From NCBI GenBank assembly GCA_011090425.1, contig PHGD01000015.1, positions 1 through 58,447 of the forward strand: a DNA stretch of 58,447 nt, given 5' to 3'. The notes beneath the pieces are model-generated. The model had not been told where the DNA came from and ran no database searches. It saw nothing but the letters and a program-made list of their open reading frames with translations. This DNA is from Nitrospira sp. LK70. GTDB taxonomy: Bacteria > Nitrospirota > Nitrospiria > Nitrospirales > Nitrospiraceae. Shown here in pieces: positions 3,332 to 18,530 of the stretch (its first letter is position 1; each line of letters opens with the position of its first letter). The position numbers and the translations under genes are program-made.

Positions 3332-3743
3332 CTATTCGCCCATGTATCCTTTTGTTGCGAGCATGTACCCTTTTGCATCCAGTTAGGTTGACTTCCATCG
3401 CCCGTCATTGCCGACATTTCGAGAATACTGTAGCAAGACCAGACAGAACGCCGACAGAACAGACTCGCCTCTGATTTGCTGAAAGCAGCAATTCTCGACA
3501 ACTCAAAGAGTTAGCAATTACAGCTCAATTCTTAATGATAAGTAGACCGAAAAGGAATGAACAATGCATGTTGAATTGGCCTTGCATCGAACCGGTATCA
3601 GGAATATATAGCGGGATAGTTGAGGGGAAGAAAGTTGTCCCTTTTGCCTGACCGGTAACAATTCAAGTATCAGGCAAGGCATAGGGTTGACGAAATATAT
3701 GTCGGCTTAGCCGTAAGGGGTAGAGTGGATCAAGTCACGCACG
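3332..3743. other. Intergenic region with an 8-base inverted repeat
   Basis: No credible gene is visible in these 412 bases. TTGCCTGA (3644-3651) and its exact complement TCAGGCAA (3670-3677) are 18 bases apart, about 70-100 bases before the sigma-54 activator gene. It could be an operator for autoregulation or a hairpin. No clear -35/-10 pair or sigma-54 site was found for the downstream gene. Confidence 0.4.
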
Positions 3744-5300: not shown

Positions 5301-5442
5301 CCCGAATCCCTCCGAACATTCTGCTGCACACGTCGATTTGTCTCGACTGCGACCATTCCGTCACTGGCTCGCCTCACGGTATCTCTGTATCTCACCTGTC
5401 GCATCGTACCATGCGGAAAAGATCTTCCAGGTCTGAGCTGAC

Positions 5443-5461
5443 CCTTTCCGGAAAGGTTTTT
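5443..5461 (+). terminator. Candidate rho-independent terminator after the activator gene
   Basis: CCTTTCCGGAAAGG (5443-5456) can fold as a 5-bp stem with a 4-base loop and is followed directly by TTTTT (5457-5461). The stem is short, so termination would be partial, but the position between the activator and the cluster fits separate transcription units. Confidence 0.4.
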
Positions 5462-5557
5462 CTTCGCTTCTCCCCCTCCACAGATCGTTTCGGGCGCCAG
5501 GTGGCGCAACACAATGTTTTTCAATCAATGAGCGCCGGCAACGAGCTGTTCTTGCCG

Positions 5558-5573
5558 TGGCATGTCGGCTGCT
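5558..5573 (+). promoter_or_regulatory. Candidate sigma-54 promoter of the 5.6-16.3 kb cluster
   Basis: TGGCATGTCGGCTGCT matches the sigma-54 consensus TGGCACG-N4-TTGCW with two changes and keeps the essential GG (-24) and GC (-12) separated by 10 bases. Transcription would begin near 5584. This lies about 260 bases after a sigma-54 activator gene and just before the first cluster gene. If real, it makes GTG 5602 rather than GTG 5557 the start of that gene. Confidence 0.5.
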
Positions 5574-5601
5574 AGATGCCTTCATAGAGGACGAGAAGAT
5601 T

Positions 5602-5844
5602 GTGGCTATCGAAGGATTCCGTTTTTTATTGAATCGGTTCGTGCGCTTCAAAGTGAGCGATGTCACCATCCCTGCTCCTCAAACAGTCGTCACTGAACTG
5701 TATGGTGGAGACATCGTGCAAGGGAAGGTTGTTGATATCACGGAGAGCGGAACCCAGGAGCAAGCGTTCATTGTTGTGAAGGTGGATGCCATGAAGGACT
5801 TTCTCATTCTTCCCGCAGAGAAAGTGATTGGAATCACGGACTAG
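5602..5844 (+). CDS. Small protein of unknown function, first gene of the cluster
   Basis: A protein of about 80 residues (95 if it starts at GTG 5557). It alternates short hydrophobic strands with charged turns (Phe-Val-Arg-Phe-Lys-Val, Gly-Lys-Val-Val-Asp-Ile, Ala-Phe-Ile-Val-Val-Lys-Val, Phe-Leu-Ile-Leu-Pro-Ala-Glu-Lys-Val-Ile-Gly-Ile), suggesting a small beta-barrel. GTG 5602 is preferred because the candidate sigma-54 promoter overlaps the earlier start and GAGG lies upstream. It is followed 39 bases later by the transglutaminase-like gene. No family is recognised. Confidence 0.6.
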   Translation: MAIEGFRFLLNRFVRFKVSDVTIPAPQTVVTELYGGDIVQGKVVDITESGTQEQAFIVVKVDAMKDFLILPAEKVIGITD

Positions 5845-5883
5845 TGAGCGAAGTGTGACAGGGAGATCCTGAGGGAGCGACAC

Positions 5884-6996
5884 GTGAATCAAACGATGAA
5901 TGGCACGAAATCGAGTGGGCCGTGCCGATGCAAAACCATGAGTGATTTGCCCGGCGCGAATCTCAAGTTGAGTAGAAAACATGCTCCGTCCACACAGAGG
6001 TACACGCCGTTACCGTTCACCTCGCCGAAGATCACTCTCGGGCATATCCCGACTGGTTGGCGCGGCACGGAAAGAACGGTTGAGCATGTACAGGCGCTGA
6101 TTCGGTCCGGAGCGAGAGATTTTTATGTACGTCAGAAGGCCATCGATATCTTGCTGGAGAAACCTGTCAAGCCCAAAGACTACTTGGGGGAGATTCAGGC
6201 CCTCTTCGAATGGGTCCAGCGGCATATTCGGTATACCAAGGATACGTTTCAGGTGGAGGTGCTTCATTCGGCGCGGCGCATGCTGGAGTTGCGGGCCGGC
6301 GATTGCGACGACATGACCATACTCCTGGGAGCAATGTTGGAGGCCATCGGTCACCCAGTGCGGCTGGTCCTCAGCGGACCGGACCCGCTCAAACCGGACC
6401 TCTTCACCCATATTTATCTGGAAGTGTTTCACAAAGGCCGCTGGATTCCGCTGGACGCCACTATGCCCTATCCGATGGGCTGGGCGCCGAGCACAGTGGT
6501 GAAAAAGATCATTGCGATCGAAAGGAGGGCGAACATGATGGCCGAGGACATCGAACTGCAAGGCTTGAGCGACATCGGTGCCGTACCGGACTGGTTGAGG
6601 GGGCTGCTTCGGGCCGTGCGCCACGAAGCCCTGCAGCCCAAAGACACGAGAGTGAAGTCCCTCTGGGATCTGCTGCGGCAGCGGCAATTGCTGCAGCGAA
6701 GCCCATGGCTCAGGGCGGTCTTACGCCGTGTCTGGGACCGTGGGTTGTCCGCTCGACCTCATCCACGTACCGCGAGACGGATAAAAATACGATTGCGGCA
6801 TTGGCGGATCTTGCCGCCGATTGCAGTGAGTGCGGCGGCCTATCGTCCGGCAGGCATACGCGCGAGAGCCCAATCTGCTGTCCAGCCGGCTCGACCTGTG
6901 ATGCTTAAGCCAGTCGCGTCGGTACGGCCTGTGGCCATGCAGCCGGTGCAGCCCGTACAGATGAAGCCGGTAGGTATGAAGGCAGCGGCGAAATGA
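5884..6996 (+). CDS. Transglutaminase-like (cysteine protease fold) protein
   Basis: This 370-residue protein has a transglutaminase-like core at about residues 95-215. The catalytic Cys is in Gly-Asp-Cys-Asp-Asp-Met, the His in Thr-His-Ile-Tyr-Leu-Glu-Val, and the Asp in Leu-Asp-Ala-Thr. Such domains cross-link proteins or cleave peptide bonds. There is no signal peptide. After the core come a short segment Glu-Asp-Ile-Glu-Leu-Gln-Gly-Leu (like the motif repeated in the acidic protein downstream), a basic helical region, and a tail of Pro-Val/Lys-Pro-Val repeats. GTG 5884 follows GAGGG. Its stop overlaps the next start by 4 bases, so the two are translationally coupled. It may process or cross-link other cluster products; this is inference. 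Confidence 0.8.
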   Translation: MNQTMNGTKSSGPCRCKTMSDLPGANLKLSRKHAPSTQRYTPLPFTSPKITLGHIPTGWRGTERTVEHVQALIRSGARDFYVRQKAIDILLEKPVKPKDYLGEIQALFEWVQRHIRYTKDTFQVEVLHSARRMLELRAGDCDDMTILLGAMLEAIGHPVRLVLSGPDPLKPDLFTHIYLEVFHKGRWIPLDATMPYPMGWAPSTVVKKIIAIERRANMMAEDIELQGLSDIGAVPDWLRGLLRAVRHEALQPKDTRVKSLWDLLRQRQLLQRSPWLRAVLRRVWDRGLSARPHPRTARRIKIRLRHWRILPPIAVSAAAYRPAGIRARAQSAVQPARPVMLKPVASVRPVAMQPVQPVQMKPVGMKAAAK

Positions 6997-7358
6997 GCTG
7001 CCGATGTCAGACATGTTCCGGTAATGGTGGCGATAATTCATCGCTTGTGGGGGAAATCTTTGAGGCGATACCAATGGAGAGCGTGCAGCAAGGAATGGCT
7101 CTCTACCGAGGGTTCAATGGCTTTGAACCGGCTCAGGTCGTGAAAGTTCATCATCACAGAGTGATCCCGCCGGTGGTGGTGGAGCTGGGTGAATTGGTGG
7201 GTCTGATGTATCGCTCTGATAAGGGGCAACCAGGTCAACCTCAAACCTACATTCACCGGATGGACGACCCACCGCGTCTGGTCAGCAACATTGAGGGAAC
7301 GCAACTCTACATCGTGGGTGGCAGTTATCAGGTCACTCCACGAGGGATTGAGGGCTAG
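6993..7358 (+). CDS. Small Cys- and His-containing protein of unknown function
   Basis: This 121-residue protein starts at an ATGA overlap with the gene before. It begins Met-Ser-Cys-Arg-Cys-Gln-Thr-Cys, a metal-binding-like cysteine cluster, and has a His-His-His stretch in the middle. The rest is predicted beta-rich (Pro-Pro-Val-Val-Val-Glu-Leu-Gly-Glu-Leu-Val-Gly-Leu). No family is recognised. It is part of the cluster and followed 10 bases later by the next gene. Confidence 0.7.
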   Translation: MSCRCQTCSGNGGDNSSLVGEIFEAIPMESVQQGMALYRGFNGFEPAQVVKVHHHRVIPPVVVELGELVGLMYRSDKGQPGQPQTYIHRMDDPPRLVSNIEGTQLYIVGGSYQVTPRGIEG

Positions 7359-7368
7359 GGGGAGTGAC

Positions 7369-7686
7369 ATGAGAAGTGACCAACAGCTCGGGCTGGATGA
7401 ATTGATGATCGTGAACCCCAGTTCTGCAAGGACCGACATTATGTTTCTGAGTGACGATGGAACCTTGTACCAGGTTCAAGGCCTGGGTGGAGAACGTGCA
7501 GTGAAGGGATTGGGACAATGTTTTCTGGGCGAAGATGGGTCGCTCTATCAGGTACAGGGCTTCGAAACGGACAGTTCGGAAGAGCCAGCTAACCCTTCAG
7601 GCGAAAAACTGCAAGCAGAAGGCAGCCCTGCAGCCGGCCAATATTTCCTCGGGGCAGACGGGACGTTATACGAGGTTGTCAGATAG
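7369..7686 (+). CDS. Small protein with three DG-[TS]-LY-[QE] repeats
   Basis: This 105-residue protein starts at ATG 7369 after AGGGGGAG. It carries three copies of a module of the form Phe-Leu-x-x-Asp-Gly-[Thr/Ser]-Leu-Tyr-[Gln/Glu]-Val, at about residues 26, 53 and 96. The first two are followed by Gln-Gly-[Leu/Phe]. The same module appears in the large repeat protein at 8390-9346. Between copies are Gly-Leu-Gly elements. There is no signal peptide or membrane segment. Function is unknown; a shared interaction module within one assembly is the natural inference. Confidence 0.75.
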   Translation: MRSDQQLGLDELMIVNPSSARTDIMFLSDDGTLYQVQGLGGERAVKGLGQCFLGEDGSLYQVQGFETDSSEEPANPSGEKLQAEGSPAAGQYFLGADGTLYEVVR

Positions 7687-7717
7687 GCGCTCATTATTAC
7701 GAATAAAGGAGGTTGCT

Positions 7718-8362
7718 ATGGCAAAGGTTCAAGGCATGAAAGAAAAGTTTCACTCGCCCTTATTCGATGCCTTCTTCGTGAAGGACGAAGATAGGACCGG
7801 AGGAGGGAAAAAAAAGTTCACAGACTTTATGACAGATCCACGGGTTATTCGCTTCTTTGTGGATATTCAGAACAAGACCAAACTGGAAACAAATATGCAG
7901 GCATCGGGTGTCTTGCCTAGCTTGAATACCTTCGAGGCACGCGCTTTGCGCGTGGTGGTCTCCAGTCTCCATCGTTTTAGCCCCAAAAGGAGCAAAGCGG
8001 ATGAGCTCCAAGCTGAGCGCAACGAGGCTGAGATCCTTGCTGATCTGATCTACAACTCAGTCACGTCTTTGATCGTGGGTGAAAAGATCATGATCGAAAT
8101 GCCCACCTTCTGGTTTCCATCCGGCGCTGGTGTCAGTCCTGGCCTCACCGTCTCCAACCACGGTGAACCTGACCCGACCGCGACATTCCGCTTCGCGGAA
8201 CCGGTGTATATCGAGCCGCAGCAGGGCTTCCGAGTCGAGATGGCATTCCCTCAGGGTGTCCCAGGAGTAAGTCCGGTAGACGATCAAAAATTGGCTCATG
8301 TGACGGGCCCGCTTCGGATCTGGGTCGTGCTGGATGGCTATCTAACCCGCGATGTTCAGTAA
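7718..8362 (+). CDS. Candidate structural protein of the cluster, unknown fold
   Basis: This 214-residue protein starts at ATG 7718 behind a consensus AAAGGAGG site, implying strong translation. It has a Lys/Asp-rich N-terminus, then an apparently beta-rich body with aromatic strands (Pro-Thr-Phe-Trp-Phe-Pro, Val-Tyr-Ile-Glu-Pro-Gln-Gln-Gly-Phe-Arg-Val-Glu-Met-Ala-Phe) and a closing strand Leu-Arg-Ile-Trp-Val-Val-Leu-Asp-Gly-Tyr-Leu. That ending resembles the Ala-Glu-Leu-Phe-Ile-Val-Leu-His-Gly-Tyr end of the protein at 9450-10112, so the two may be distant relatives. No signal peptide is present. A capsid or shell role is a guess from strong translation and beta content only. Confidence 0.75.
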   Translation: MAKVQGMKEKFHSPLFDAFFVKDEDRTGGGKKKFTDFMTDPRVIRFFVDIQNKTKLETNMQASGVLPSLNTFEARALRVVVSSLHRFSPKRSKADELQAERNEAEILADLIYNSVTSLIVGEKIMIEMPTFWFPSGAGVSPGLTVSNHGEPDPTATFRFAEPVYIEPQQGFRVEMAFPQGVPGVSPVDDQKLAHVTGPLRIWVVLDGYLTRDVQ

Positions 8363-8389
8363 CCGGCGAAATCATATAGGAGGCGAACC

Positions 8390-9346
8390 ATGCAGTACTT
8401 GAGTGAAGACCAAGCAACCCAGATGATGGGCATGGGCTACATCGGCGAGGTGCGGCAGGGGCCTGATGGGAATCTCTATCAGTATGTGCAGGGGGTGGAC
8501 GGGCTGGGCAATCCTCTGGGCTTCTGGCGCAGGTTGAAGCGGTTGGCTCGCCGTGTCGTCCGCAAGGCGCTGCCCATAGCGCAACAATTCGCTCCATTTA
8601 TTCCAGGCGGGACTGCGGCGCTCACGGCCGTGACTCCATTCCTCAAACAGGCCGGAGTCGCCGGGCAAGATGGTATCGGCGCTCTCTATCAGGCTCCCGA
8701 TGGCACCCTGTACCAGGAGGTCCAGGGTGTAGCCGAAAACGAGGAGCTTCGGGGGTTAGGAGAGGATGAGGTCGCACAGATGATGGGCATGGGCTACATC
8801 GGCGAGGTGCGGCAGGGGCCGGATGGGAATCTCTATCAGTATGTGCAGGGGGTGGATGGGCTGGGCAATCCTCTGGGCTTCTGGCGCAGGTTGAAGCGGT
8901 TGGCTCGCCGTGTCGTCCGCAAGGCGCTGCCCATAGCGCAACAATTCGCTCCATTTATTCCAGGCGGGACTGCGGCGCTCACAGCAACGACTCCGTTCCT
9001 AAAACAAGCCGGCGTTGCAGGCTACGAAGGCTTGGACGAGGATGAAGAACTGCGAGGACTGGACGAAGATGACGAACTGCGTGGACTTGATGAAGACGAC
9101 GAATTGCGTGGTCTCGATGAGGATGAAGAACTCCGCGGTCTGGAGGCGGACGACGAGCTACAGGGCCTTGCCGAAGATGACGACTTGCGCGGAGCCGGAG
9201 AAGATCAGGAGATGCAAGGCGTTGATGGCTATATCCGGCAGAATACTATGAGTGGATTAGAGGCCTATGTGCCGCAGGAGCCTCCGCAGACTCGCTGGCA
9301 CGTGACCCCCGCCCAGCCGCCGGAGGTGTGGAAACCACTGTGGTAA
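8390..9346 (+). CDS. Large internally duplicated protein with acidic ELRGL repeats
   Basis: This 318-residue protein has three parts. A unit of about 119 residues occurs twice: a DG-N-LY-Q module, then a Trp-Arg-Arg-Leu-Lys-Arg basic helix, then Ala-Leu-Pro-Ile-Ala-Gln-Gln-Phe-Ala-Pro-Phe-Ile-Pro-Gly-Gly and an Ala/Thr-rich hydrophobic stretch, the best candidate for a membrane-active helix. Seven tandem 9-residue acidic repeats of the type DEDDELRGL follow (residues about 216-278). A Pro/Trp-rich tail ends Lys-Pro-Leu-Trp. ATG 8390 follows TAGGAGG. A basic amphipathic unit coupled to an acidic repeat block suggests a scaffold or self-masking arrangement. Function is unknown. Confidence 0.8.
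   Translation: MQYLSEDQATQMMGMGYIGEVRQGPDGNLYQYVQGVDGLGNPLGFWRRLKRLARRVVRKALPIAQQFAPFIPGGTAALTAVTPFLKQAGVAGQDGIGALYQAPDGTLYQEVQGVAENEELRGLGEDEVAQMMGMGYIGEVRQGPDGNLYQYVQGVDGLGNPLGFWRRLKRLARRVVRKALPIAQQFAPFIPGGTAALTATTPFLKQAGVAGYEGLDEDEELRGLDEDDELRGLDEDDELRGLDEDEELRGLEADDELQGLAEDDDLRGAGEDQEMQGVDGYIRQNTMSGLEAYVPQEPPQTRWHVTPAQPPEVWKPLW
8420..8982 (+). repeat. Near-identical 206-base direct repeat inside one gene
   Basis: Bases 8420-8625 and 8777-8982 are the same except for about two to three substitutions, with a 357-base offset. Similarity continues more weakly to about 8666 and 9023. The high identity at synonymous sites points to a recent duplication or ongoing gene conversion within the coding sequence. 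Confidence 0.9.
9035..9223 (+). repeat. Seven tandem 27-base repeats encoding acidic nonapeptides
   Basis: In frame the units read DEDEELRGL, DEDDELRGL, DEDDELRGL, DEDEELRGL, EADDELQGL, AEDDDLRGA and GEDQEMQGV. The first four are nearly uniform and the last three decay, so the array probably expands and contracts at its 5' side. Confidence 0.9.
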
Positions 9347-9449
9347 GCCGAGTGACAAGATGCCCCATCCTGCATCTCGGACAGGCGCTCTGTGTGACCA
9401 TCATACGAGATGCCTGTGATGTGGGACGAGGGGGTAGGAGGTACAGACG

Positions 9450-10112
9450 ATGCGATTAGGATTGGGTCAAGACCAGCAACCGGTCCCCACACGATCAGTG
9501 CCGGACATGATGCAGCCGTCGGTGGCATCGCCAACTACCAAAGAGATTCCATACGACTATGTGGCCAAGTTCACGTTGAAAGGAGAACGCGGCAATCGTG
9601 TGCAGGATGTGATCAACATCAGCATCGAGGGCGCATTCATCGCAACGGCCATCGGCTATAGCTTTGTCCCCGCTAAGTTGCCAGATTTGACGGGAACTCT
9701 CACTGTACTCAGCTCAGCAACGAGTGACAGCGTGGCCTTGTTGATCAACAGTCTTCTATCTTTGGAAGACAAGAACGATCCACGCATGTTTGCGCAGTGT
9801 CTACTCGTGAAACTCTGCGGAATCGACTTCAAGTACAGCATCGTCGATAGCGGGAGCGGCCGCGAGTTGCAGAATCAGCCGATCCATAATATCGCGGGGC
9901 TCGGTGAGGCAACCGGGGAACGGCCGTTCCGTCCCCTGGCCAAACCGATGCTGTTCACGCCCCGCTCGACTGTCCGTATCGAGGTCGAAGAAATTTCGGT
10001 GGGACCTATTTATGGTTATGAGGATCAGCTGACCAAACAGCGTGTTGGTGCTGAGCTCTTCATCGTGTTGCACGGCTACAAGATTTTGGGCTATGGAACG
10101 GGGTTGTCATGA
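9450..10112 (+). CDS. Candidate structural protein of the cluster, unknown fold
   Basis: This 220-residue protein starts at ATG 9450 after GTAGGAGG. It begins Met-Arg-Leu-Gly-Leu-Gly-Gln, another Leu-Gly-type N-terminus of this cluster. It appears beta-rich, with a body of alternating hydrophobic residues (Val-Ile-Asn-Ile-Ser-Ile-Glu-Gly-Ala-Phe-Ile) and an Ile-Ala-Gly-Leu-Gly-Glu element near residue 150. It ends Ala-Glu-Leu-Phe-Ile-Val-Leu-His-Gly-Tyr-Lys-Ile-Leu-Gly, similar in pattern to the end of the protein at 7718-8362. The stop overlaps the next start (ATGA), indicating coupled expression. No known family is recognised. Confidence 0.75.
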   Translation: MRLGLGQDQQPVPTRSVPDMMQPSVASPTTKEIPYDYVAKFTLKGERGNRVQDVINISIEGAFIATAIGYSFVPAKLPDLTGTLTVLSSATSDSVALLINSLLSLEDKNDPRMFAQCLLVKLCGIDFKYSIVDSGSGRELQNQPIHNIAGLGEATGERPFRPLAKPMLFTPRSTVRIEVEEISVGPIYGYEDQLTKQRVGAELFIVLHGYKILGYGTGLS

Positions 10113-10603
10113 ACGCCAACCATGCGTGCGCTGTTCATCGGGACGTCGGTTATTCCAACCTGTGCCAAGTCTGCGGCATTCCCATGGACGCCGGGTATTT
10201 CGATGTCGCAAGCATCAAAGCGGCGCCACCGGTTGGAAAAGAAGTCGAACTCGCTCGCTACCAGCTACACCCTCAGTATTGCGGGACATTGCTGTATTTC
10301 ATGCAATATGCGGAAGAATCGACAACAAACAAGCAAGTGCTCTCGAACACGCCAGGGTACGAATGGCTGATCCTTTGCAACAATCAGCCGCGGGCGCCCT
10401 ACTTGCCTACGAGCCTCATCTTGAACCCATGGGGCTATAACTCCCTTCCGATCCATTTGAGGTTGGAAGAGGGCTGTACGCTGAGGTTCGTCGTGAGAAG
10501 AGTCGCGGCTATCGTGTCGCCGGAGTTGTCGCAAGTGGGAGGCCGGCTCCTCGGCCGTTCCTGGTACAACACCATCTATGGAGGAATACCGAATCGTTTG
10601 TGA
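10109..10603 (+). CDS. Protein with an N-terminal cysteine cluster, unknown function
   Basis: This 164-residue protein overlaps the preceding gene by 4 bases. The first 30 residues carry Cys-x(n)-His and Cys-x2-Cys pairs (Cys-Ala-Val-His-Arg; Leu-Cys-Gln-Val-Cys-Gly), which could bind zinc. The remainder is predicted beta-rich with several aromatic residues (Leu-Leu-Tyr-Phe-Met-Gln-Tyr; Trp-Gly-Tyr-Asn-Ser-Leu-Pro-Ile-His-Leu-Arg-Leu). It may form a complex with the 9450-10112 product, given the coupling. The family is unknown. Confidence 0.7.
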   Translation: MNANHACAVHRDVGYSNLCQVCGIPMDAGYFDVASIKAAPPVGKEVELARYQLHPQYCGTLLYFMQYAEESTTNKQVLSNTPGYEWLILCNNQPRAPYLPTSLILNPWGYNSLPIHLRLEEGCTLRFVVRRVAAIVSPELSQVGGRLLGRSWYNTIYGGIPNRL

Positions 10604-10629
10604 GCTCGTTCTCTAAGAGGAGGTTCAAT

Positions 10630-11460
10630 ATGTACATCAAAACCGATGGAGGTTTAGGACTAGCCCCAATGCTAGATGGTCCTATTGCCGGTCTTGGTGC
10701 TGCCAGGAAATGGGTGCATCGCCGGCGACCTCGCTCTGGATCTGGACGTGCGCCGAGCCGCACGGCTGGTCTCGGCGGATTCGGTGCGCCAGTGTTCGAC
10801 GTGCAGTGTCCCGACCCGCCTGGCTGCGCGCCGGGGGTTGATGCAGCCGGATGCCGTGCCGCCATACGTGCCGCGGTGCGGGAAGCGATCAGGCTGGCGA
10901 ACAACGCCGCAAACAAACTCGAGGCCGCGATCGCGGTACCACCCGCTTCACGCGACGCGGACGCCCAACGAACCGCGAAGCGCTTCAAGTTCTTTTTCCG
11001 CCATGACCCAGCACATGCGATCAAGTGGGCAGGACATGAGGAGTCTGGCGTCAGCGTCGCCAAACGGTTTCGAGCAGTGGCAAAGGAATTGGACGGCGGG
11101 CGGCGAGTGGTTTTTCATTGCCGGCCGACGAGGGTTCCCTGTGCCGATACGGACCTGACGTGCTGCCCGGCGGATGTGAACGCCTGGTTCAGCACAGACG
11201 TGCAAAACGGGGTCAACCTGTGTGATGGCTTCTGGAATCCCCCAACGGACTTGCCGCCAGGACTTCCAGTCCGGAGTTTCCGTGCTGCGATCATCATCCA
11301 CGAGATGCTGCACATGCTCTTCGAACATCTCCGTGACGTGGGTCAGGGCAGGATCAGAGCGGCCTGCTATGAAGCCTTCGCCTTGCGTGCGGCGGGCATT
11401 CCGGCTGACCGGTTTGATGTCTGCCAATGCCGCGGCACCGTGCCATGCCCGCCACCATGA
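10630..11460 (+). CDS. Zinc metallopeptidase (HExxH) with the MYIKT-GGLG N-terminal signature
   Basis: This 276-residue protein starts at ATG 10630 behind a perfect AGGAGG. The zinc site is Ile-Ile-Ile-His-Glu-Met-Leu-His-Met-Leu (HExxH, near residue 222). It is preceded by a Cys-rich region with Val-Asn-Leu-Cys-Asp-Gly-Phe-Trp and followed by Ala-Cys-Tyr-Glu-Ala-Phe-Ala-Leu. That layout recalls deuterolysin (M35)-like or lysine-specific metallo-endopeptidases. The N-terminus is not a signal peptide: it reads M-Y-I-K-T-D-G-G-L-G, then Ile-Ala-Gly-Leu-Gly-Ala and an Arg-rich stretch. Neighbouring hydrolase genes begin similarly, suggesting a shared sorting or assembly tag. The substrate is unknown. 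Confidence 0.8.
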   Translation: MYIKTDGGLGLAPMLDGPIAGLGAARKWVHRRRPRSGSGRAPSRTAGLGGFGAPVFDVQCPDPPGCAPGVDAAGCRAAIRAAVREAIRLANNAANKLEAAIAVPPASRDADAQRTAKRFKFFFRHDPAHAIKWAGHEESGVSVAKRFRAVAKELDGGRRVVFHCRPTRVPCADTDLTCCPADVNAWFSTDVQNGVNLCDGFWNPPTDLPPGLPVRSFRAAIIIHEMLHMLFEHLRDVGQGRIRAACYEAFALRAAGIPADRFDVCQCRGTVPCPPP

Positions 11461-11588
11461 GCAAGCGTGAGGATGATGTGCGCCTGTCAATTCTCATTGA
11501 TCGGGCGGCAACCAGGCTGATGGCGTCCGTTGCCGAGCAGAAAGTAGAAGGGGAAAGACCATGTACATCCGGACTGGTGGAGACTTAG
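11457..11588 (+). CDS. Possible 43-residue coupled small protein
   Basis: An ATG at 11457 overlaps the stop of the metallopeptidase gene (ATGA), and the frame stays open for 43 codons, past the start of the next gene. The peptide is a plausible charged helix (Arg-Leu-Ser-Ile-Leu-Ile-Asp-Arg-Ala-Ala-Thr-Arg-Leu-Met). There is no separate Shine-Dalgarno site, so it would rely on coupling. It may equally be a chance frame. Confidence 0.3.
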   Translation: MSKREDDVRLSILIDRAATRLMASVAEQKVEGERPCTSGLVET

Positions 11589-12724
11589 GGAGGCTCTCAA
11601 CCTCATACCTTTATGATTCTTCGATAAGGGGGGTTGGGGAGCCATCGCGCAAGCCAGTTCTACTGACCCATTATCACGTGAGGAAGTATTTGGATCCTGC
11701 TTCGCTGGCGCTGCTGTCGGACCCCGACGCCAGCATCATGACGGCCGCACAGATGAAGCCGGGCTTCGTGGATGACCCACGGCGCGTGAGCCTGCAGAGG
11801 GAACTGACGACGCTGGTCCATGGCAAGTATCTAGCGGCGGTGTCGCCCAAGGTACAGTTGCGGATTGCTCTCGTGGATCTGACGGAGGTAAAGCACCACA
11901 CGCCGATCTTCGCCGGCTTCTCGGCGTGGAACCGGAGCGACCCGGGAGAAGGAGCGACAATGGAAGGGGACAGTCTCCCCAAGATCCTTGCGCTGTACGC
12001 GGTCTACCAGTTGCGCTTCGACTTGAACATCTTTGCCAAGCTCAATAACATCGCCAGAGGCAGTGCGTTGCAGACCGCCATAGAGAAGGAGTGGAAGAAG
12101 GCGGGGCTCCAGTCGCAGCCCGGTCTTACAAAGCTGTTCCAGTTCACGGAAAAGGATGGTAGCCCGGTGGAGGCAAGGCTACGGCGAACGCCGGCAGTAC
12201 ATGGCAACTGGGACGCGCGCGCCCTCATCGTTGCCTTGGGCTTCGAGTACATCGGCTCAGTAGCACTGCAATCGGGCCTCTTCGACGAAAAGCACGGCGG
12301 CTTGTGGTTGAGGGCCGCCTATGAAAAGCCGGCGCTCACCTGGTGGGGCAGTCCGTTCCCAACACTGCCCCGTCATAGTGCCACAGCTTATGCGGCGGCA
12401 ACCTTCTTTACACTGCTGGCTCAGGGGCGCCTAGTGAATCAGGCGTCGTCGAACGAAATCGCCAACGTACTGAAGTCGCGGCAGTGCATGGAAAATGGCC
12501 TTCTCGCTGGAGTGAAGCAGCTTCCGGGCGCGCCGCCGGCGTCGGCCAATAAGTGCGGGCTTGTTCGTCCTCGTTATCACGATGCGATCCACGTGATCCG
12601 CCAGCCTGCGGCAGGAAAACGGCTGGAGTATGTCGCGGTGGTCCTTTCCGAAGAACCTCCGGAACTGGACTTCACCGCCCTGGGGAAGGACCTGGACAAC
12701 ATTATTGAGAAGCAGAATCCCTGA
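11561..12724 (+). CDS. SxxK serine-hydrolase-like (beta-lactamase fold) protein with MYIRT-GGDLG N-terminus
   Basis: This 387-residue protein starts at ATG 11561 after AGGGGAAAG. Residues about 140-150 contain Gly-Asp-Ser-Leu-Pro-Lys-Ile-Leu-Ala-Leu-Tyr, the Ser-x-x-Lys motif at the start of the long helix in penicillin-binding-protein/beta-lactamase-fold enzymes, preceded by a phenylalanine-rich strand. A later segment Ser-Ala-Thr-Ala-Tyr could supply the second motif, and no clear Lys-Thr-Gly was found. No signal peptide: the N-terminus is M-Y-I-R-T-G-G-D-L-G, matching the flanking metallopeptidase and amidase. A peptidoglycan- or D-amino-peptide-directed activity is inferred from fold and neighbours. 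Confidence 0.65.
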   Translation: MYIRTGGDLGRLSTSYLYDSSIRGVGEPSRKPVLLTHYHVRKYLDPASLALLSDPDASIMTAAQMKPGFVDDPRRVSLQRELTTLVHGKYLAAVSPKVQLRIALVDLTEVKHHTPIFAGFSAWNRSDPGEGATMEGDSLPKILALYAVYQLRFDLNIFAKLNNIARGSALQTAIEKEWKKAGLQSQPGLTKLFQFTEKDGSPVEARLRRTPAVHGNWDARALIVALGFEYIGSVALQSGLFDEKHGGLWLRAAYEKPALTWWGSPFPTLPRHSATAYAAATFFTLLAQGRLVNQASSNEIANVLKSRQCMENGLLAGVKQLPGAPPASANKCGLVRPRYHDAIHVIRQPAAGKRLEYVAVVLSEEPPELDFTALGKDLDNIIEKQNP

Positions 12725-12739
12725 TAATGAGGCCTCTCC

Positions 12740-13816
12740 ATGTATCTTCGCTATGCGCACGGACTGGGGCGGGCTGCCGCAGTGACAACCATCACCAGCC
12801 CGGACAGCAGGCTGGTCAAGCAAGTGACTCCAGCAGCCCTCTGCGGGGTGTGGCGCAGCGGTGGCGCTCCTAAAGTGCGCGGCTGGCCCAGCATTACCCA
12901 TGTAGTCATCCATACCCTGATCGGGTCCGCCGCCACCACGATCCGGCACTGGCATGGCGGACAAAACTGCCTTCCACCCCATTACGTGATCGACAAGAAC
13001 GGCGAGATCACCCAGATGGTCGCCGAACGCTACTACGCTCAGCACGTCGGGACGGCCAACACCTATTCGATTGGCATCGAACACGAAGGGGGTTGCTACA
13101 ACACCCCAGCGTGCTTCTCCGAGTCTCTGTATCAGGCCTCGGCCGCTCTGGTGCGAGATATCTGCGAACGGCAAAAAATTCCCAAAGACCGCGCACACAT
13201 CATCGGTCACGACGAAGCGCCCGGTACAGGCCACGGCGACCCAGGCGGCTACTGGGATTGGGATTACTACATGGCTTTGCTCCAATGGGACGGCCGCACA
13301 GCCAGCCTAAAACCGCAGCGCATCGTGCTGGATTACAATTCTCTCTTCACCTTCCCACTTACGGCCAACTGGAACGAGGGTGTGCGTCTACCAGTCAAGT
13401 GGGGTCCCGGGCACGAGCAGAGTTATGCCGCTAAATATTATTATGCAGAGGCCGACCCAGTGGCCAAAGAAGATGACGCCGTCGAATACTCTGGTGCAAT
13501 CACTGACAGCGGCCAGTGGATACTCTCCGCTTGGTGGCCGGTGTTGCGCGGTAGTAACACTGCGGCGCTCATCAACGTCGCTACCACCAACCGTGATCCA
13601 GCCCAGCGCTCTTTCTCCGGGACCTACGACCAAAGCGCGCGCGGACTCATGGCGCGGCAGACAGCGGCTTTGTACTCAACGCACACCTGGATGCCGGTCC
13701 ACACTTTCACGCTGAACACTGGTGACGGCGTCAGGATCTCGGTTTCACGGCGCAGCAGCGCGCGCGGCAGGGTCATCGCCGATGCGTTTCGCTTGCTAAA
13801 AACTGGCTCGTTGTAG
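12740..13816 (+). CDS. N-acetylmuramoyl-L-alanine amidase (Amidase_2) with golvesin-like C-terminal domain
   Basis: This 358-residue protein would cleave the amide bond between muramic acid and the stem peptide. The Amidase_2 domain spans about residues 45-190: Val-Val-Ile-His-Thr, Tyr-Val-Ile-Asp-Lys-Asn-Gly-Glu-Ile, Ile-Gly-Ile-Glu-His-Glu-Gly, and Ile-Ile-Gly-His-Asp-Glu-Ala with a late Gly-His-Gly-Asp-Pro-Gly zinc segment. Residues about 210-355 form a beta-sandwich like the golvesin/xanthan-lyase carbohydrate-binding unit, ending Ile-Ala-Asp-Ala-Phe-Arg-Leu. The N-terminus M-Y-L-R-Y-A-H-G-L-G replaces a signal peptide and resembles the tags on the two hydrolases upstream. ATG 12740 has GAGG upstream. 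Confidence 0.85.
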   Translation: MYLRYAHGLGRAAAVTTITSPDSRLVKQVTPAALCGVWRSGGAPKVRGWPSITHVVIHTLIGSAATTIRHWHGGQNCLPPHYVIDKNGEITQMVAERYYAQHVGTANTYSIGIEHEGGCYNTPACFSESLYQASAALVRDICERQKIPKDRAHIIGHDEAPGTGHGDPGGYWDWDYYMALLQWDGRTASLKPQRIVLDYNSLFTFPLTANWNEGVRLPVKWGPGHEQSYAAKYYYAEADPVAKEDDAVEYSGAITDSGQWILSAWWPVLRGSNTAALINVATTNRDPAQRSFSGTYDQSARGLMARQTAALYSTHTWMPVHTFTLNTGDGVRISVSRRSSARGRVIADAFRLLKTGSL

Positions 13817-13825
13817 GAGATACCC

Positions 13826-14155
13826 ATGTATATTGACGGTCTACAAAGCAACAGTCAGACACAGAATCTGAGTGTAACGCTCGGTGTCTCTGCGGCATCT
13901 GGCGCAGCTCCGGCGCTGAGCGCTGCTGCCTTGAAGAAGGCAGTCACTGTGAATCGGGTCTATGCCCGCATGATCGGCTGGAGGAATTATACGAGCCAGA
14001 TCGCAGTTCGCCTGGGCATTACCACGAAGAACCCGGATGTCTGGAGCTTCGTCCAGGCCCTCGCCAACTGGCAAGCGCGCAACATGATGAAATCGCCCGA
14101 CGGCATTCTAGGACCGGAATGGTATGACCTGCTGACGCGGAATCGTCGAGCTTGA
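13826..14155 (+). CDS. Small protein with a possible peptidoglycan-binding ending
   Basis: This 109-residue protein starts at ATG 13826 after GTAGGAG. It begins M-Y-I-D-G-L, a shorter form of the cluster's N-terminal pattern. Its last 45 residues (Trp-Ser-Phe-Val-Gln-Ala-Leu-Ala-Asn-Trp-Gln, then Ser-Pro-Asp-Gly-Ile-Leu-Gly-Pro-Glu-Trp-Tyr) have the Asp-Gly-Ile-x-Gly-Pro-x-Thr/Trp layout of peptidoglycan-binding domain 1. It lies between the amidase and an exported-fibre-like gene, consistent with a wall-targeting accessory. Confidence 0.6.
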   Translation: MYIDGLQSNSQTQNLSVTLGVSAASGAAPALSAAALKKAVTVNRVYARMIGWRNYTSQIAVRLGITTKNPDVWSFVQALANWQARNMMKSPDGILGPEWYDLLTRNRRA

Positions 14156-14209
14156 AGACACCGAGTTGTTTTCGTCAAGGACAACACGTTGAATTACAGG
14201 AGAACCACG

Positions 14210-14740
14210 ATGTCTACTATTGCAATCACATCACACGACGGCAAGCTCAGCGCTGCATCGGCAGTTCTTGAAGTGAGTGCCACCAATCCGAACTATAACC
14301 AACCCGTGTTGCGGATCAAACAAGCCGGTACCAGCGGAGGGGCGGCCTCTATAAGGATCGATGACCCGAATCCCGACATCGAGTTTGTTGAGACGGGCTT
14401 AACGGGTCCTGATCCCGGAGCCGGGAAGTTCGAGATTGCCGTTCAGGCGGACCAACTCCAGATCAACGGCCGCAACGCCGAGGTCGGTTCCGACAAAGGC
14501 TTCGATAACATCGTCGCCCTTACCCGACCGGCAGCAGGTGGCAACATCGGAATCGGGTTTCCGGAAGCCAAAGACTACAAGAGGTTTGGAGGAGGAAAGG
14601 GTGTCATCGTGATCGCAAATGCCACTGTGGCTCCTTCCCCATCCAAGAAGCTCGCCGGCGCGGGAATTTTGTATGTTGAGGATGGAGCGCTCAAGTATAT
14701 GGGTTCGGAGGGAACGGTGACGGAGATCGCCCCTGCTTAA
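14210..14740 (+). CDS. Beta-rich fibre-like protein of unknown function
   Basis: This 176-residue protein starts at ATG 14210 behind ACAGGAG (an earlier in-frame TTG at 14189 lacks such a site). It is low in cysteine and rich in Gly, Ala, Thr and Asn, with a repeated strand-turn pattern (Gln-Pro-Val-Leu-Arg-Ile-Lys-Gln-Ala-Gly; Ala-Ser-Ile-Arg-Ile-Asp-Asp; Gly-Asn-Ile-Gly-Ile-Gly). It ends Ala-Gly-Ile-Leu-Tyr-Val-Glu-Asp-Gly-Ala-Leu-Lys-Tyr-Met-Gly-Ser-Glu-Gly-Thr-Val-Thr. This style is common in phage tail-fibre and spike proteins, where each repeat is a strand of a trimeric helix. That comparison is a pattern judgement, not a family match. Confidence 0.6.
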   Translation: MSTIAITSHDGKLSAASAVLEVSATNPNYNQPVLRIKQAGTSGGAASIRIDDPNPDIEFVETGLTGPDPGAGKFEIAVQADQLQINGRNAEVGSDKGFDNIVALTRPAAGGNIGIGFPEAKDYKRFGGGKGVIVIANATVAPSPSKKLAGAGILYVEDGALKYMGSEGTVTEIAPA

Positions 14741-14757
14741 TCGAAAGGAATGGGACC

Positions 14758-16347
14758 ATGAAGCGCAAAACAAGAGACGCCCATCAAAAATCATCGTCTC
14801 GCGCTCAGCGCGTCGTTCCCTTCATCTGGCCCCTCAGCAAGAGCTCCACGCCGGACGAGATGAACACGTCCTTCGGTCCGCGTATCGACGCGGATCGCTG
14901 GGATTTCCACGACGGCATCGACCTGCCCGCTCCCGTCGGCACGCCAGTCCATGCCATGGCGGACGGCATCGTGCAGCGCGCTGGGCCAGCGGATAAGACC
15001 GAGTCGGGCCAAGGTTTCGGCTCAACCCATATCATTCTCAAGGTCGTTGATCCGATCGACGGGAAGGATGACCTATTCCTTGTCTATCTCCATCTCGACA
15101 GCATCGCGGAGGGGGTGATCCCAGAGGCAGAGGTGAAGCAGGGCAACATCATCGCCGCGGTGGGTCAAGAAGATGCGACCTATCCTCATCTTCATTTCGA
15201 GTTCAGAAAGGGTGAGGAACCTAAACCAGAAAACAGTGTGCACCCGTTGCGCTATCTGGGCTGCCCCAACACAGCGAACTTCAGGCAGCTCCGTCTGGAC
15301 CGCTGTAATTTCTCTGGCACGAATGGTGAGAAGAGAGCGGTGCGACTTCCCTTTGTCGTCCGGAACCGTCGGGAAGGCGATGTGCAAGGCGTTGATGTGT
15401 CGTTGAAGGGCGAAGGAATAGAGCCTCGGACGCTTCACGTCGACTTCGATGACCGGAACACCATCAATAGTGACAAGGGGGACGACAAGGCTTTCAAGAA
15501 TGGAATTGCTGTGGAAGGCTACCAGAAATCCAATCTGAAGGGAGCGGGATTGCGCGTGCTGCACTATGGCGTGCTGGTCAAGGACATCGTTCCCGAATAC
15601 GAATCCGTGGAATTGCGAGTCCTGGATGTCAAGAATGAGAAACCGAAAAGCGCCAAGTTCCTTCTGCCGAAACTCGAAGTAGGCGAAAGTCCCATCTATA
15701 GCCGTGCAAATTTCGAAGAGGGGGAAACATTCCCGCCGCAGGGGTGGGAATTATCTCTCTTATCGGGCAATGTCTGCAGACCGGACGCCGTTCCCACAGG
15801 CGGCCGCACCTTACTCTGCCAGGATCTTCAGAGTTTGCCAGAGGCATTGATCCGTGCTGGGCTGCGCTTCGCCTTACCCGTCGAGGGCTCGCGTATCCTC
15901 CCCATGTCCTGGCGCTTGAAGGCAAATATCCACCCCAAGGAACTTGATATGGACAAGGGACTGGTGATTCATCCATTGGCGTTCCTGGCGGGCAACGATG
16001 TGGTCGCGGCTGCCTGCCTGCGGAAGATCGGGGGCAATACATTCGTCGCAGGCGTCTTGATTCGCAGCGCGGACGGCTTGTTTCGTGAACGAATCGATGT
16101 GAGTGAGGGAGAGATATTCCTGGATGAATCGGTCAGTTGGGAGCTTGAGCTGCTACGATTAGGCACCCGGCAAACGACTGCGGTATTGCGACTGAGCAAC
16201 AACGTCGTGGCCCGCATCAACGGCGACACCACGAACGTCGAGCCTGATGCCGCTTGCGTCGGGATACTGCATAGGCACGGGGGATTACAGATCACGCTGC
16301 ATGTCGATGAATTACGCCTGACGGAAGCGCCACGAAGATCTGGGTAA
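14758..16347 (+). CDS. M23-family metallopeptidase with long beta-rich C-terminal region
   Basis: This 529-residue protein is a LytM/lysostaphin-type peptidoglycan endopeptidase. The M23 domain occupies about residues 30-170: Ser-Phe-Gly-Pro-Arg, His-Asp-Gly-Ile-Asp-Leu (H-x3-D), Gly-Thr-Pro-Val-His-Ala-Met-Ala-Asp-Gly, then Leu-Val-Tyr-Leu-His-Leu and Pro-His-Leu-His-Phe-Glu (HxH), so all zinc and catalytic residues are present. The remaining 350 residues look like two beta-sandwich domains without a recognised family. There is no signal peptide, only a basic start (Met-Lys-Arg-Lys-Thr-Arg). It is the last gene of the cluster and meets convergent hpnE after 9 bases. Confidence 0.87.
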   Translation: MKRKTRDAHQKSSSRAQRVVPFIWPLSKSSTPDEMNTSFGPRIDADRWDFHDGIDLPAPVGTPVHAMADGIVQRAGPADKTESGQGFGSTHIILKVVDPIDGKDDLFLVYLHLDSIAEGVIPEAEVKQGNIIAAVGQEDATYPHLHFEFRKGEEPKPENSVHPLRYLGCPNTANFRQLRLDRCNFSGTNGEKRAVRLPFVVRNRREGDVQGVDVSLKGEGIEPRTLHVDFDDRNTINSDKGDDKAFKNGIAVEGYQKSNLKGAGLRVLHYGVLVKDIVPEYESVELRVLDVKNEKPKSAKFLLPKLEVGESPIYSRANFEEGETFPPQGWELSLLSGNVCRPDAVPTGGRTLLCQDLQSLPEALIRAGLRFALPVEGSRILPMSWRLKANIHPKELDMDKGLVIHPLAFLAGNDVVAAACLRKIGGNTFVAGVLIRSADGLFRERIDVSEGEIFLDESVSWELELLRLGTRQTTAVLRLSNNVVARINGDTTNVEPDAACVGILHRHGGLQITLHVDELRLTEAPRRSG

Positions 16348-16356
16348 GCGAACGTT

Positions 16357-17673
16357 TTAAGCAGGATCGCCGGCGACGAGCTCCGCGCAGCGACGGGCGC
16401 TGACGAGCGCGCTCTCTAGATTGGCCGGCCATCCGGTGTCGGTCCATGGCCCGGTGACGAGCAAGTTCTGAATGGGACTTTGTTGTAGTGGCCTCAATCG
16501 CGTAGCGCCCGGTGTAAGTACGAGGGCAGCGTGGTCCTCGCGAAAGATTGCCCGGGATGTCACGTCCTCTCCAGTCATTTCAGGGAGCAGCATGGAAAGC
16601 TCGACCTGTGCCCTGGCAAATAATTGATCATCGTCGGATTTCATGAGCGCGTTGCCGACCGCAGACAGCCGATATGTGATTTCGCCAGAACCGAGTGATG
16701 TGCTGATGAACTGGTGGAACGGTCGGCCCGAGAGGAGGAGCAGCCGAAGCCTTTGCTCCGCAGCCGGACAGGTCAACTGAACATCGACTCCGCTCAAACT
16801 CTTGATCTCGGTGATCTGTGCGAAGTAGGCGTAGCGTGTCAGCAGCCGTTCCGGTAGTAGCCGCAATAGATTCTGATAGGAGAGTGCAACGATGTACCGG
16901 TCGGCGCGCAGCCTGCTGTCGTCGTGAAGCCGGACTTCGCTCACGCCGTTCTGTCCAAACCGTAGGGTAGGCCGATGGGTCAGGGAGACGATCCGCACAT
17001 GACCTTGTTGGAGCGTCTGTTTCATGGGTGCGATGAAACGGTGCTCGACGGAGCCGGTCAGGTGGGTGAGCCTCGCGTCCGATGCGTCGCGCAGAAACAC
17101 GGTTGAAAGCAAATGGACGAAGGTTGCAGCGGAGAGACAGGTCAGCCCGTTGTCGGTCAACCATTGAGCGAGCGGATCCCAAATCCGCTCGCTCGCTTCG
17201 GGACTTTGCCCGGTTGTCGTCAGCCATTCCTCCGCAGTCCGATTTTCCAAATCTGCAGGGAGGGTTTGGGCTTGTTCCCAAATGTGCTCGACATGGGAGA
17301 AGAGTCTCCACCGATCCTGCCAGGAAAGACCATCAAAGCTGAAGAGGCTCATCATCCATTGAAAAGCGCCGGGGAGGCGGGTCGATTGATAGGGGACGAT
17401 TCGTCCATCGGACAACCGAAATTCCAGTGGAATCGTTCGGTCGCCTTCCGAAGGCTTTTCTCGCTCGAGCGCGCGAAGGATTCGCCTCGTCTCATGGTGA
17501 CATCCCAGAACGATCGGAGCTGGTTGGGATGCGTCGGTCCGGAATCCATCGAACCAGGCAGGATGATCGAGCAGGGTGACTTGATAGCCCTGTTGATGAA
17601 GATGGTACGCGGTGGTCAGGCCGGCCAGCCCGGCACCGAGAATGAGGATGGTGTGTGAGGATGGCTCGGTCAC
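16357..17673 (-). CDS. hpnE: Hydroxysqualene dehydroxylase (squalene-associated FAD-dependent desaturase)
   Basis: HpnE reduces hydroxysqualene to squalene in the bacterial hopanoid route. The protein of about 438 residues has the FAD Rossmann motif Gly-Ala-Gly-Leu-Ala-Gly close to the N-terminus and the flavin amine-oxidase ending (Leu-Leu-Val-Thr-Gly-Pro-Trp-Thr-Asp-Thr-Gly-Trp-Pro-Ala-Asn-Leu-Glu-Ser-Ala), with Trp-Pro-Ala typical of HpnE. GTG 17673 is preferred because it overlaps the hpnD stop (GTGA); an in-frame TTG at 17694 is an alternative. The order hpnD-hpnE supports the assignment. HpnC and squalene-hopene cyclase are not in this window. Confidence 0.9.
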   Translation of the reverse strand: MTEPSSHTILILGAGLAGLTTAYHLHQQGYQVTLLDHPAWFDGFRTDASQPAPIVLGCHHETRRILRALEREKPSEGDRTIPLEFRLSDGRIVPYQSTRLPGAFQWMMSLFSFDGLSWQDRWRLFSHVEHIWEQAQTLPADLENRTAEEWLTTTGQSPEASERIWDPLAQWLTDNGLTCLSAATFVHLLSTVFLRDASDARLTHLTGSVEHRFIAPMKQTLQQGHVRIVSLTHRPTLRFGQNGVSEVRLHDDSRLRADRYIVALSYQNLLRLLPERLLTRYAYFAQITEIKSLSGVDVQLTCPAAEQRLRLLLLSGRPFHQFISTSLGSGEITYRLSAVGNALMKSDDDQLFARAQVELSMLLPEMTGEDVTSRAIFREDHAALVLTPGATRLRPLQQSPIQNLLVTGPWTDTGWPANLESALVSARRCAELVAGDPA

Positions 17674-18530
17674 GAGAACCGGGAGCGGAGCCAAACACGT
17701 AGGGCAATAACCATTCGTTGGGCGTTGGTGAGACTAATACGCGGTCCGAAGACCTGATAGTTCGACTGTTCGATCCGTTCCAGAATCCGACTGTACACGC
17801 CACGCATGATTTCCGCGACGGTCAGCGCGCGGCGCTCTTGAGGCGATAGTCCCATGAGGGCCGCATCGGCGCGCTTATAATAGTGGTGTGCCCGAGATGC
17901 CTCATACTCCATCAATGCACGGAACTCCGGGGAATAGCTTCGATTGAGGACGGCTTTTTCCGAATGATTCCACTTCCGTAAGTCGTCCAACGGCAGATAA
18001 ATACGACTTTCGGCGGCGTCTGTTCCGACGTCGCGGAGGATGTTGGTCAGTTGGAAGGCCATGCCGAGTGCCACCGCATAATCCTGGGCGCGCGCCGATG
18101 TGACACCAAAGACATGCAAACAGATGAGCCCTACGACGGAGGCGACGCGATAGCAATAGAGCGACAGCTCATCGAATGTGACATAGCGATTGTTGAACAA
18201 ATCCATCTCGACGCCTTTAATCAATTCCTCGAAGTACGCCTTCGGAATACCCAAGCCCTTCACATGGTGGGCGAGGCTCACCATGATAGGGCTGGTCGAG
18301 GTGCCCGAATACACCGCCTCCAGCTCATCACGCCAATGCTTGAGTTCGTCTTTGGGATTGTTCCCGGCGGAAGGTTCGTCAACGGCGCTGTCGACGGCCT
18401 TGCAGAAGGCATAGACCGTGTACATGGCGTCGCGTTTGGATTTTGGAAGGAACAGGAACGAATAGTAAAAGTTGCTGCCGCTGTGCTTCGTGTAGGCGGT
18501 GCAATAGGCTTGAGCTTCAGAGACCGTCAT
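17670..18530 (-). CDS. hpnD: Presqualene diphosphate synthase
   Basis: HpnD condenses two farnesyl diphosphates to presqualene diphosphate, the first committed step to squalene and hopanoids. The 286-residue protein has both Asp-rich motifs of squalene/phytoene synthases: Cys-Lys-Ala-Val-Asp-Ser-Ala-Val-Asp-Glu (DxxxD) and Asn-Ile-Leu-Arg-Asp-Val-Gly-Thr-Asp (DxxxD). The Tyr-Cys-Tyr-Arg-Val-Ala-Ser-Val-Val-Gly segment and final Leu-Pro-Leu-Asp-Asp-Leu are also typical. ATG 18530 overlaps the upstream stop (ATGA), so it is coupled to the cobalamin-binding-like gene, and its stop overlaps hpnE. Confidence 0.93.
   Translation of the reverse strand: MTVSEAQAYCTAYTKHSGSNFYYSFLFLPKSKRDAMYTVYAFCKAVDSAVDEPSAGNNPKDELKHWRDELEAVYSGTSTSPIMVSLAHHVKGLGIPKAYFEELIKGVEMDLFNNRYVTFDELSLYCYRVASVVGLICLHVFGVTSARAQDYAVALGMAFQLTNILRDVGTDAAESRIYLPLDDLRKWNHSEKAVLNRSYSPEFRALMEYEASRAHHYYKRADAALMGLSPQERRALTVAEIMRGVYSRILERIEQSNYQVFGPRISLTNAQRMVIALRVWLRSRFS

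Follow-up and report, generated by a model that had tools for sequence, protein, structure and literature searches.

The window analysed here is a stretch of 58,447 nucleotides from Nitrospira sp. LK70 (contig PHGD01000015.1), part of a Nitrospira-like genome of 4.7 Mb. Behind the gene of a sigma-54-dependent activator (3744-5300) it carries 14 co-directional open reading frames (ORFs) on the + strand, which span 5602-16347 with intergenic gaps of -4 to 103 bp. In our view this cluster is probably, if far from certainly, a domesticated virion module of a tailless phage that, under sigma-54 control, makes particles carrying tagged wall- and protein-degrading enzymes. More tentatively, it could stand for a cross-phylum class of viriforms, namely domesticated tailless-phage shells that deliver proteins, not DNA, loaded by way of a modular N-terminal tag that stems from virion proteins, and with exchangeable cassettes under sigma-54. 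The evidence computed here comprises a conserved core with its gene order, a variable cassette, the tag, conservation of the promoter, the insertion site, purifying selection and, for three core families, distant relatives on phage contigs.

The initial annotation, made without database searches, had described a co-directional cluster behind a sigma-54 activator, and this is borne out, as is the span of the cluster; gene starts needed correction, the first gene beginning with GTG at 5602, the gene called 7360 with ATG at 7369 and the M35 gene at 10630. The core genes, all on the + strand, are as follows.

5602-5844, + strand: small core protein of 80 amino acids (aa), with homologues in the same place in loci L041, L042 and L044-L046
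5884-6996, + strand: transglutaminase-like (TG) core protein (Pfam Transglut_core, 1.2e-12)
6993-7358, + strand: core protein 6993, with relatives on six phage contigs (best 2.2e-7)
7369-7686, + strand: core protein with a [DN]E[LV]MIVNP motif and a weak match to gp55 of Salisaeta icosahedral phage 1 (SSIP-1; hhalign 55%)
7718-8362, + strand: 7718, the most conserved core protein and a candidate shell subunit, with the C-terminus LDGYLTRDVQ and relatives on phage contigs
8390-9346, + strand: core protein 8390, with two DGLGNPLGFW and cationic amphipathic stretches, acidic repeats and a C-terminal KPLW
9450-10112, + strand: 9450, a jelly-roll core protein (AlphaFold2 model) and candidate shell subunit
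10109-10603, + strand: core protein with a CxxC knuckle

In the TG-like protein the Cys-His-Asp set is intact, Cys141, His176 and Asp191 being invariant. None of the remaining core genes showed a convincing family in Pfam, PHROGs or NCBIfam, and PADLOC matched no catalogued defence gene set, only the AAA+/helix-turn-helix (HTH) part of the activator resembling RtcR-type models. In its first amphipathic stretch, the 8390 product has a net charge of +9 and a hydrophobic moment of ~0.56, and it is possibly a membrane-active protein.

A search for the same gene order in other genomes, as the initial annotation had proposed, was carried out by scanning 84,980 species genomes with the transglutaminase. 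The core order TG-6993-7360-7718-8390-9450-10109 recurs in Nitrospirota, Gammaproteobacteria (Methylococcales), Chloroflexota, Actinobacteria, Acidobacteria, KSB1, Calditrichota and Verrucomicrobia, a scattered spread over about eight phyla, not every core member being detected at every locus. In a second architecture, type B, the 7718 protein is longer and the 9450 domain is present in 2+1 copies. The cluster is rare wherever it was counted, with the starting genome included in each count: 1/297 Acidobacteriota, 1/241 Verrucomicrobiota, 1/40 Calditrichota, 5/201 in the order of Methylomonas and 1/250 in the order of Mycolicibacterium. Named carriers are Methylomonas methanica NCIMB 11130, Mycolicibacterium vaccae NBRC 14118 and Streptomyces atriruber NRRL B-24165. 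The more distant TG matches (L047-L053) belong to other transglutaminase families without the core and were set aside.

Four Nitrospiraceae genomes share the genes from the activator through 10603, together with 14210 and the M23 gene, at ~58-98% identity, and the genes between 10603 and 14210 are replaced from genome to genome, even between close relatives. In the window, this variable cassette and the two constant 3' genes read as follows.

10630-11460, + strand: tagged cargo 1, M35-like HExxH peptidase (tag MYIKTDGGLGLAP; Pfam Aspzincin_M35-like, 2e-6, slightly below the curated cut-off), with homologues in G313, Mycolicibacterium and further loci
11561-12724, + strand: tagged cargo 2, SxxK serine hydrolase (tag MYIRTGGDLGR; Pfam Beta-lactamase2/SxxK, 1.1e-5)
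12740-13816, + strand: tagged cargo 3, N-acetylmuramoyl-L-alanine amidase (Amidase_2, 1.3e-24) with Golvesin_C (tag MYLRYAHGLGR)
13826-14155, + strand: tagged cargo 4, small protein with a weak PG_binding_1 match, starting MYIDGLQ, with a homologue in the Chloroflexota locus L032
14210-14740, + strand: constant 3' gene 14210, whose C-terminus resembles that of a Xanthomonas phage tail fibre (51% over 47 aa)
14758-16347, + strand: constant 3' gene, untagged M23 peptidase (Pfam M23, 3.7e-18)

The Pfam matches agree with the four wall- or peptide-directed enzymes (HExxH, SxxK, Amidase_2, M23) and the TG-like protein that had been read from the sequence. What that reading overlooked is that the enzymes are the variable part and carry a common N-terminal tag, MY[LIV]...G[LIF]G, which is found on cassette proteins of many unrelated families. 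Further examples are MYLRTAEGLGQVP, MYMSVGLGQPQ, MYIHLHGLAQPQ (OmpA-like), MYIQTRENVGQIS (trypsin-like, KSB1), MYLRQDDGFGAA (Acidobacteria) and MYISQDQTGIGQP (Chloroflexota). With start codons picked by a script that prefers ATG with a Shine-Dalgarno site and is blind to the next residue, an MY start was found in 35/41 type A cassette ORFs and in 1/128 control ORFs called under the same rule (Fisher 7e-29, a value that is optimistic because homologous cargo is counted repeatedly); the MY-starting set spans many separate homology clusters as well as singletons. G[LIF]G follows within the first 26 residues in 14 of these 35 ORFs, compared with 2/128 controls, and the tagged genes are mostly preceded by good ribosome-binding sites. 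When the DNA pattern of the full tag was run over four whole genomes, all 6 matches fell inside the cluster, and the reversed-pattern control gave 0. We had considered the Gln of GLGQxP as a transglutaminase substrate; this idea was dropped, as the cargo of the window have GLGL, DLGR and GLGR.

Several observations on the cassettes stand apart from this count. In Mycolicibacterium vaccae (L035, ~15142-16374, - strand) a further tagged gene (MYVVTGPGLGQPPGAS) lies on the opposite strand, facing the cluster. Extra truncated M23 copies occur in G226 and G313; where the cassette ends on its 3' side, tandem 14210 duplications accompanied by truncated M23 copies (G313, L020/L021, 18375-19984 of the joined stretch; L013, 142-540) are perhaps marks of cassette exchange. 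Between two 14210/M23 copies of G226 (L013, 1396-2151) lies an untagged TIR-domain protein, possibly a toxin or immunity gene, and near the cassette end of three type B clusters (L066, 6009-6797; L067 and L068, reverse strand) related proteins are encoded that lack the tag and look methyltransferase-like by eye.

Variable proteins with a common N-terminal signal beside a constant core are also seen in other effector systems, and MY...GLG could accordingly be a secretion signal and the core the machine of a protein-secretion or polymorphic-toxin system, a reading to which the TIR-domain gene in the G226 cluster would add. As no core gene encodes a membrane channel or an energising ATPase or belongs to a recognised secretion family, and as no immunity genes are obvious, we consider this very unlikely. 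Encapsulin systems pair shell genes with cargo that bears a short terminal tag, and the joint presence of such a tag and of candidate shell genes, with no export genes, would fit an intracellular compartment that is encapsulin-like in role and sequesters lytic or proteolytic enzymes. The recognisable cargo is, however, mostly wall- or protein-degrading or peptidoglycan-binding, which fits extracellular targets, and the candidate shell protein 9450 is modelled as a jelly roll rather than HK97; the tag is N-terminal, with several and mostly lytic cargo per locus, and no HK97-fold shell protein was matched in Pfam or NCBIfam. Of all the explanations weighed here, we hold the compartment to be the least probable.

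The origin of the core is best seen from its relatives in viruses. The TG-like protein is homologous to the structural protein gp34 of the tailless membrane phage SSIP-1 (hhalign 98.4%, E 8e-15; tblastn 2e-6), a phage whose gp55, as noted above, weakly resembles the 7369-7686 product and whose two neighbouring structural proteins gp45/46, of ~210 aa, are similar in size to 7718 and 9450. It also matches a Persicobacter plasmid protein in which an amphipathic stretch after the same domain resembles 8390 by eye. For 7718, single-sequence searches of phage, plasmid and viral collections gave nothing, as they did for 9450, 6993 and the whole of 14210. When IMG/VR was scanned with the cross-phylum alignment of 7718 and the two matches were used as further queries, eight contigs were found to encode a distant relative with a similar C-terminal ending, LDG...VQ (profile comparison 95%, E ~1e-8). 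These contigs also encode relatives of 6993 (six contigs) and of TG (two; hhalign 98.1%), the relatives of all three families having an identity of just ~26-30%, and a holin-family gene and glycosyltransferases; in the parts that were read, no tail, terminase or ATPase gene was recognised. The contigs (L075, L076-L078, L085 and L079-L084, the full-length ones 35-44 kb) have almost no recognisable proteins, and are perhaps an undescribed lineage of tailless phages.

The tag is found there as well. One 41-kb contig has, directly behind TG, two tagged proteins, of which one, an M23 peptidase, begins with MYVRRGLGALTPP and the other with MMYVSSRGLGQVVPP (MYVRRGLG and MYVSSRGLGQ, respectively), four contigs have an MY[LV] gene right after the 7718 relative, and RG[LMFVI]G near the N-terminus is enriched in phage-contig ORFs (10/168 versus 0/110, p 0.007). 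The tag is therefore not peculiar to the bacterial clusters, and is probably an old virion-protein signal, either for incorporation or for maturation cleavage. Since three core families and the tag occur on phage contigs and TG is like an SSIP-1 structural protein, the device is very probably of tailless-phage origin. The initial annotation had suggested an inducible particle or export device that delivers wall-lytic enzymes and is of no named type. The first part gains from the conserved core, the cargo tag, the sigma-54 site and the lack of signal peptides; as for the second, the named systems do not match, but the core families and the tag on phage contigs and the SSIP-1 likeness do point to a source.

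The same relatives also suit the main rival of our explanation, namely that the cluster is the provirus or satellite of an uncharacterised tailless phage still able to package DNA, with its packaging ATPase and replication genes elsewhere and with the enzymes as ordinary virion lysins or accessory genes. The occurrence of three core families and of tagged proteins on phage contigs, the likeness of TG to gp34 and the patchy distribution all speak for it. We nonetheless find it fairly unlikely, given the missing packaging and replication genes, the stable site and the cassette size. The boundaries of the island in which the cluster sits are given below.

2711-3331: gene at the left flank, adjoining a uracil-DNA-glycosylase-like (UDG) gene
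3332-16356, + strand: accessory island (activator, core, cassette and two 3' genes), between the 2711-3331 gene and hpnE
16357-17694: hpnE, at the right flank

In carriers G169 and G313 the block from activator to M23 lies in the same site as in the window, exactly between the flank genes, and in cluster-free Nitrospira the distance from hpnE to the equivalent of the 2711 gene is 1.0 kb (G204) or 0.34 kb (G147), with the UDG gene next. A DNA-packaging phage would not readily account for one chromosomal site in three species that is empty in others. Within the island no integrase or transposase was seen, and Pfam and PHROGs scans of the cluster, in line with the initial annotation, revealed no phage terminase, integrase or replication gene; packaging genes are likewise missing. 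Between species, the ratio of nonsynonymous to synonymous substitution rates (dN/dS) of the core genes is 0.07-0.26, similar to that of the neighbouring housekeeping genes at the flanks, and by this measure the core genes are under purifying selection. Up to seven tagged genes per locus exceed what lysis needs, and the core has no close relative in viral contigs. Carriers are 4/175 genomes of the family, one of them, G226, being of a different genus and having the cluster at another chromosomal location. Near the island, the window encodes a Phd/YefM-type antitoxin (1409-1892) followed by a small ORF; the two are likely a toxin-antitoxin pair, which G169 has as well. In the part of G313 (L021) that matches hpnD/hpnE, both genes are partly duplicated beside the cluster, either as an assembly effect or in reality.

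The activator and the promoter are given here.

3744-5300, + strand: sigma-54-dependent activator with AAA+ and Fis HTH parts (Pfam Sigma54_activat, 1.9e-63)
5558-5573, + strand: sigma-54 (-24/-12) promoter-like site TGGCATGTCGGCTGCT, score 9/11

On each strand of the window, a site scoring like TGGCATGTCGGCTGCT turns up about every 9.7 kb, and support for the site at 5558, which the initial annotation had called near-consensus, comes from its conservation in relatives: two other Nitrospira have the identical site, and near-consensus sites stand immediately upstream of the first core gene in 15/19 related loci, where the window's own rate would lead one to expect ~0.07 per searched stretch. 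An activator is found next to the core in Acidobacteria, Verrucomicrobia, KSB1, Calditrichota and methanotrophs as well. At the methanotroph loci L031, L033, L064 and L065 the regulator differs, as a receiver-like protein and another sigma-54 activator downstream of the cassette replace the upstream activator.

Structure prediction, which the initial annotation had proposed, succeeded in part. The AlphaFold2 model of 9450 (30 rows; predicted local distance difference test, pLDDT, 75.7; predicted TM-score, pTM, 0.67) is an eight-stranded jelly roll behind a floppy, disordered N-terminus. Its best solved matches, tied at Z ~8, are the copper enzyme PHM, the capsid protein of Sulfolobus polyhedral virus 1 (SPV1; 127 residues aligned) and SH1, followed by capsid proteins of haloarchaeal and plant viruses; most viral-library matches had low TM-scores and were not used for family naming. 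The model is compatible with a capsid subunit but is no proof of one. PDB profile searches of 7718, 9450 and 10109 gave nothing convincing. The 9450 model is also weakly similar to Ena2A fibres, and the cluster might thus encode a cell-surface or extracellular scaffold, a jelly-roll coat or fibre as in Ena spore appendages, that displays the tagged enzymes. The disordered N-terminal extension would suit such a fibre, and the lack of signal peptides (no cassette enzyme has a Sec-like hydrophobic N-terminus, as had been stated from the sequence) fits internal assembly followed by release. Against this, three families are common to phage contigs, the tag is present on phage-contig proteins too, and the island has no export or anchoring gene, so that we regard a scaffold as unlikely.

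The domesticated-virion explanation has its own drawbacks, which should be considered when reading the above. Particle formation and delivery are predictions from the genes. The fold match of 9450 is middling, with viral capsids tied with PHM, and the model of 7718, built from four close sequences, reaches a pLDDT of only 31; nor does 7718 have a sequence match among solved capsids. The IMG/VR contigs are virus predictions without PHROGs or Pfam hallmark genes except the holin, so that their tailless nature is a deduction. No convincing relative of 9450, 10109 or 8390 was found on phage contigs, and profile comparison of 7718 and 9450 with SSIP-1 gp45/gp46 gave no signal, for which reason a likeness seen by eye was dropped. 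The tag, finally, is loose, its G-L-G part missing from several cargo (13826, the MYIYDR group).

Set against known systems, the cluster shares features with several and matches none in full. Sphaerolipoviridae and SSIP-1-like phages encode a packaging ATPase with the capsid genes (PMC5332951). The 14 genes contain no ATPase family, the sole AAA+ protein being the sigma-54 activator, and because of this the cluster fails as a tailless phage. A homologue of their virion TG-like protein (SSIP-1 gp34) is present in the cluster; for the two small major capsid proteins of such phages, which have beta-barrel (jelly-roll) folds, the possible counterparts are 9450, with the SPV1/SH1 match, tied with PHM, described above, and 7718, which is homologous to a phage-contig protein. 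SSIP-1 differs in that it encodes an ATPase, an integrase and a primase and has no variable cassette of tagged enzymes, and the IMG/VR contigs in that neither a sigma-54 activator nor an enzyme cassette is seen in the stretches read. The gene transfer agents known so far carry DNA and descend from tailed phages; like these and other viriforms, the cluster appears to have virus-derived, vertically kept, host-regulated particle genes, but it lacks a terminase, and what changes in it is the set of tagged proteins in the cassette. In the genes scanned, neither Pfam nor PHROGs gave a match to an HK97 capsid, a terminase or tail genes. In extracellular contractile injection systems (eCIS), constant particle genes are followed by variable effectors with N-terminal signals, which is also the layout seen here; no sheath, tube or baseplate of an eCIS or tailocin was matched in Pfam or PHROGs, and no AAA+ loader family was found. 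By the features tested, the cluster is not a gene transfer agent, eCIS, tailocin or encapsulin. In a review of viriforms, tailless phages are mentioned as one more source that is possible but still unfilled (PMC9953437). Our literature search found no description of the cluster, although most subscription papers and all preprints were outside its scope and a prior description is possible.

Taking the cluster as a domesticated tailless-phage module, we infer its assembly, tag-directed loading, membrane activity, release and target as follows. On a signal, the activator would transcribe the island from 5558, and the jelly-roll 9450, 7718 and smaller core proteins would assemble a shell or particle that the TG-like protein could cross-link, trim or mature. 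Through the N-terminal tag, and in place of a genome, the particle would load the changeable enzyme set, that is peptidases, amidase, SxxK hydrolase, peptidoglycan-binding and other proteins, and 8390 may disturb a membrane via its cationic amphipathic stretches. Release would presumably occur through lysis of the producer, and the released enzymes would most likely attack the walls and proteins of neighbouring cells.

The known domesticated phage particles (gene transfer agents, tailocins and eCIS) derive from tailed phages. The cluster is a concrete candidate for a domesticated tailless-phage particle and, if this is true, would be a new kind of virus-derived particle. As its core is conserved in sequence and present in named strains, the proposal can be tested at the bench, and a short transferable cargo tag, if confirmed, would show how proteins are addressed into such shells.

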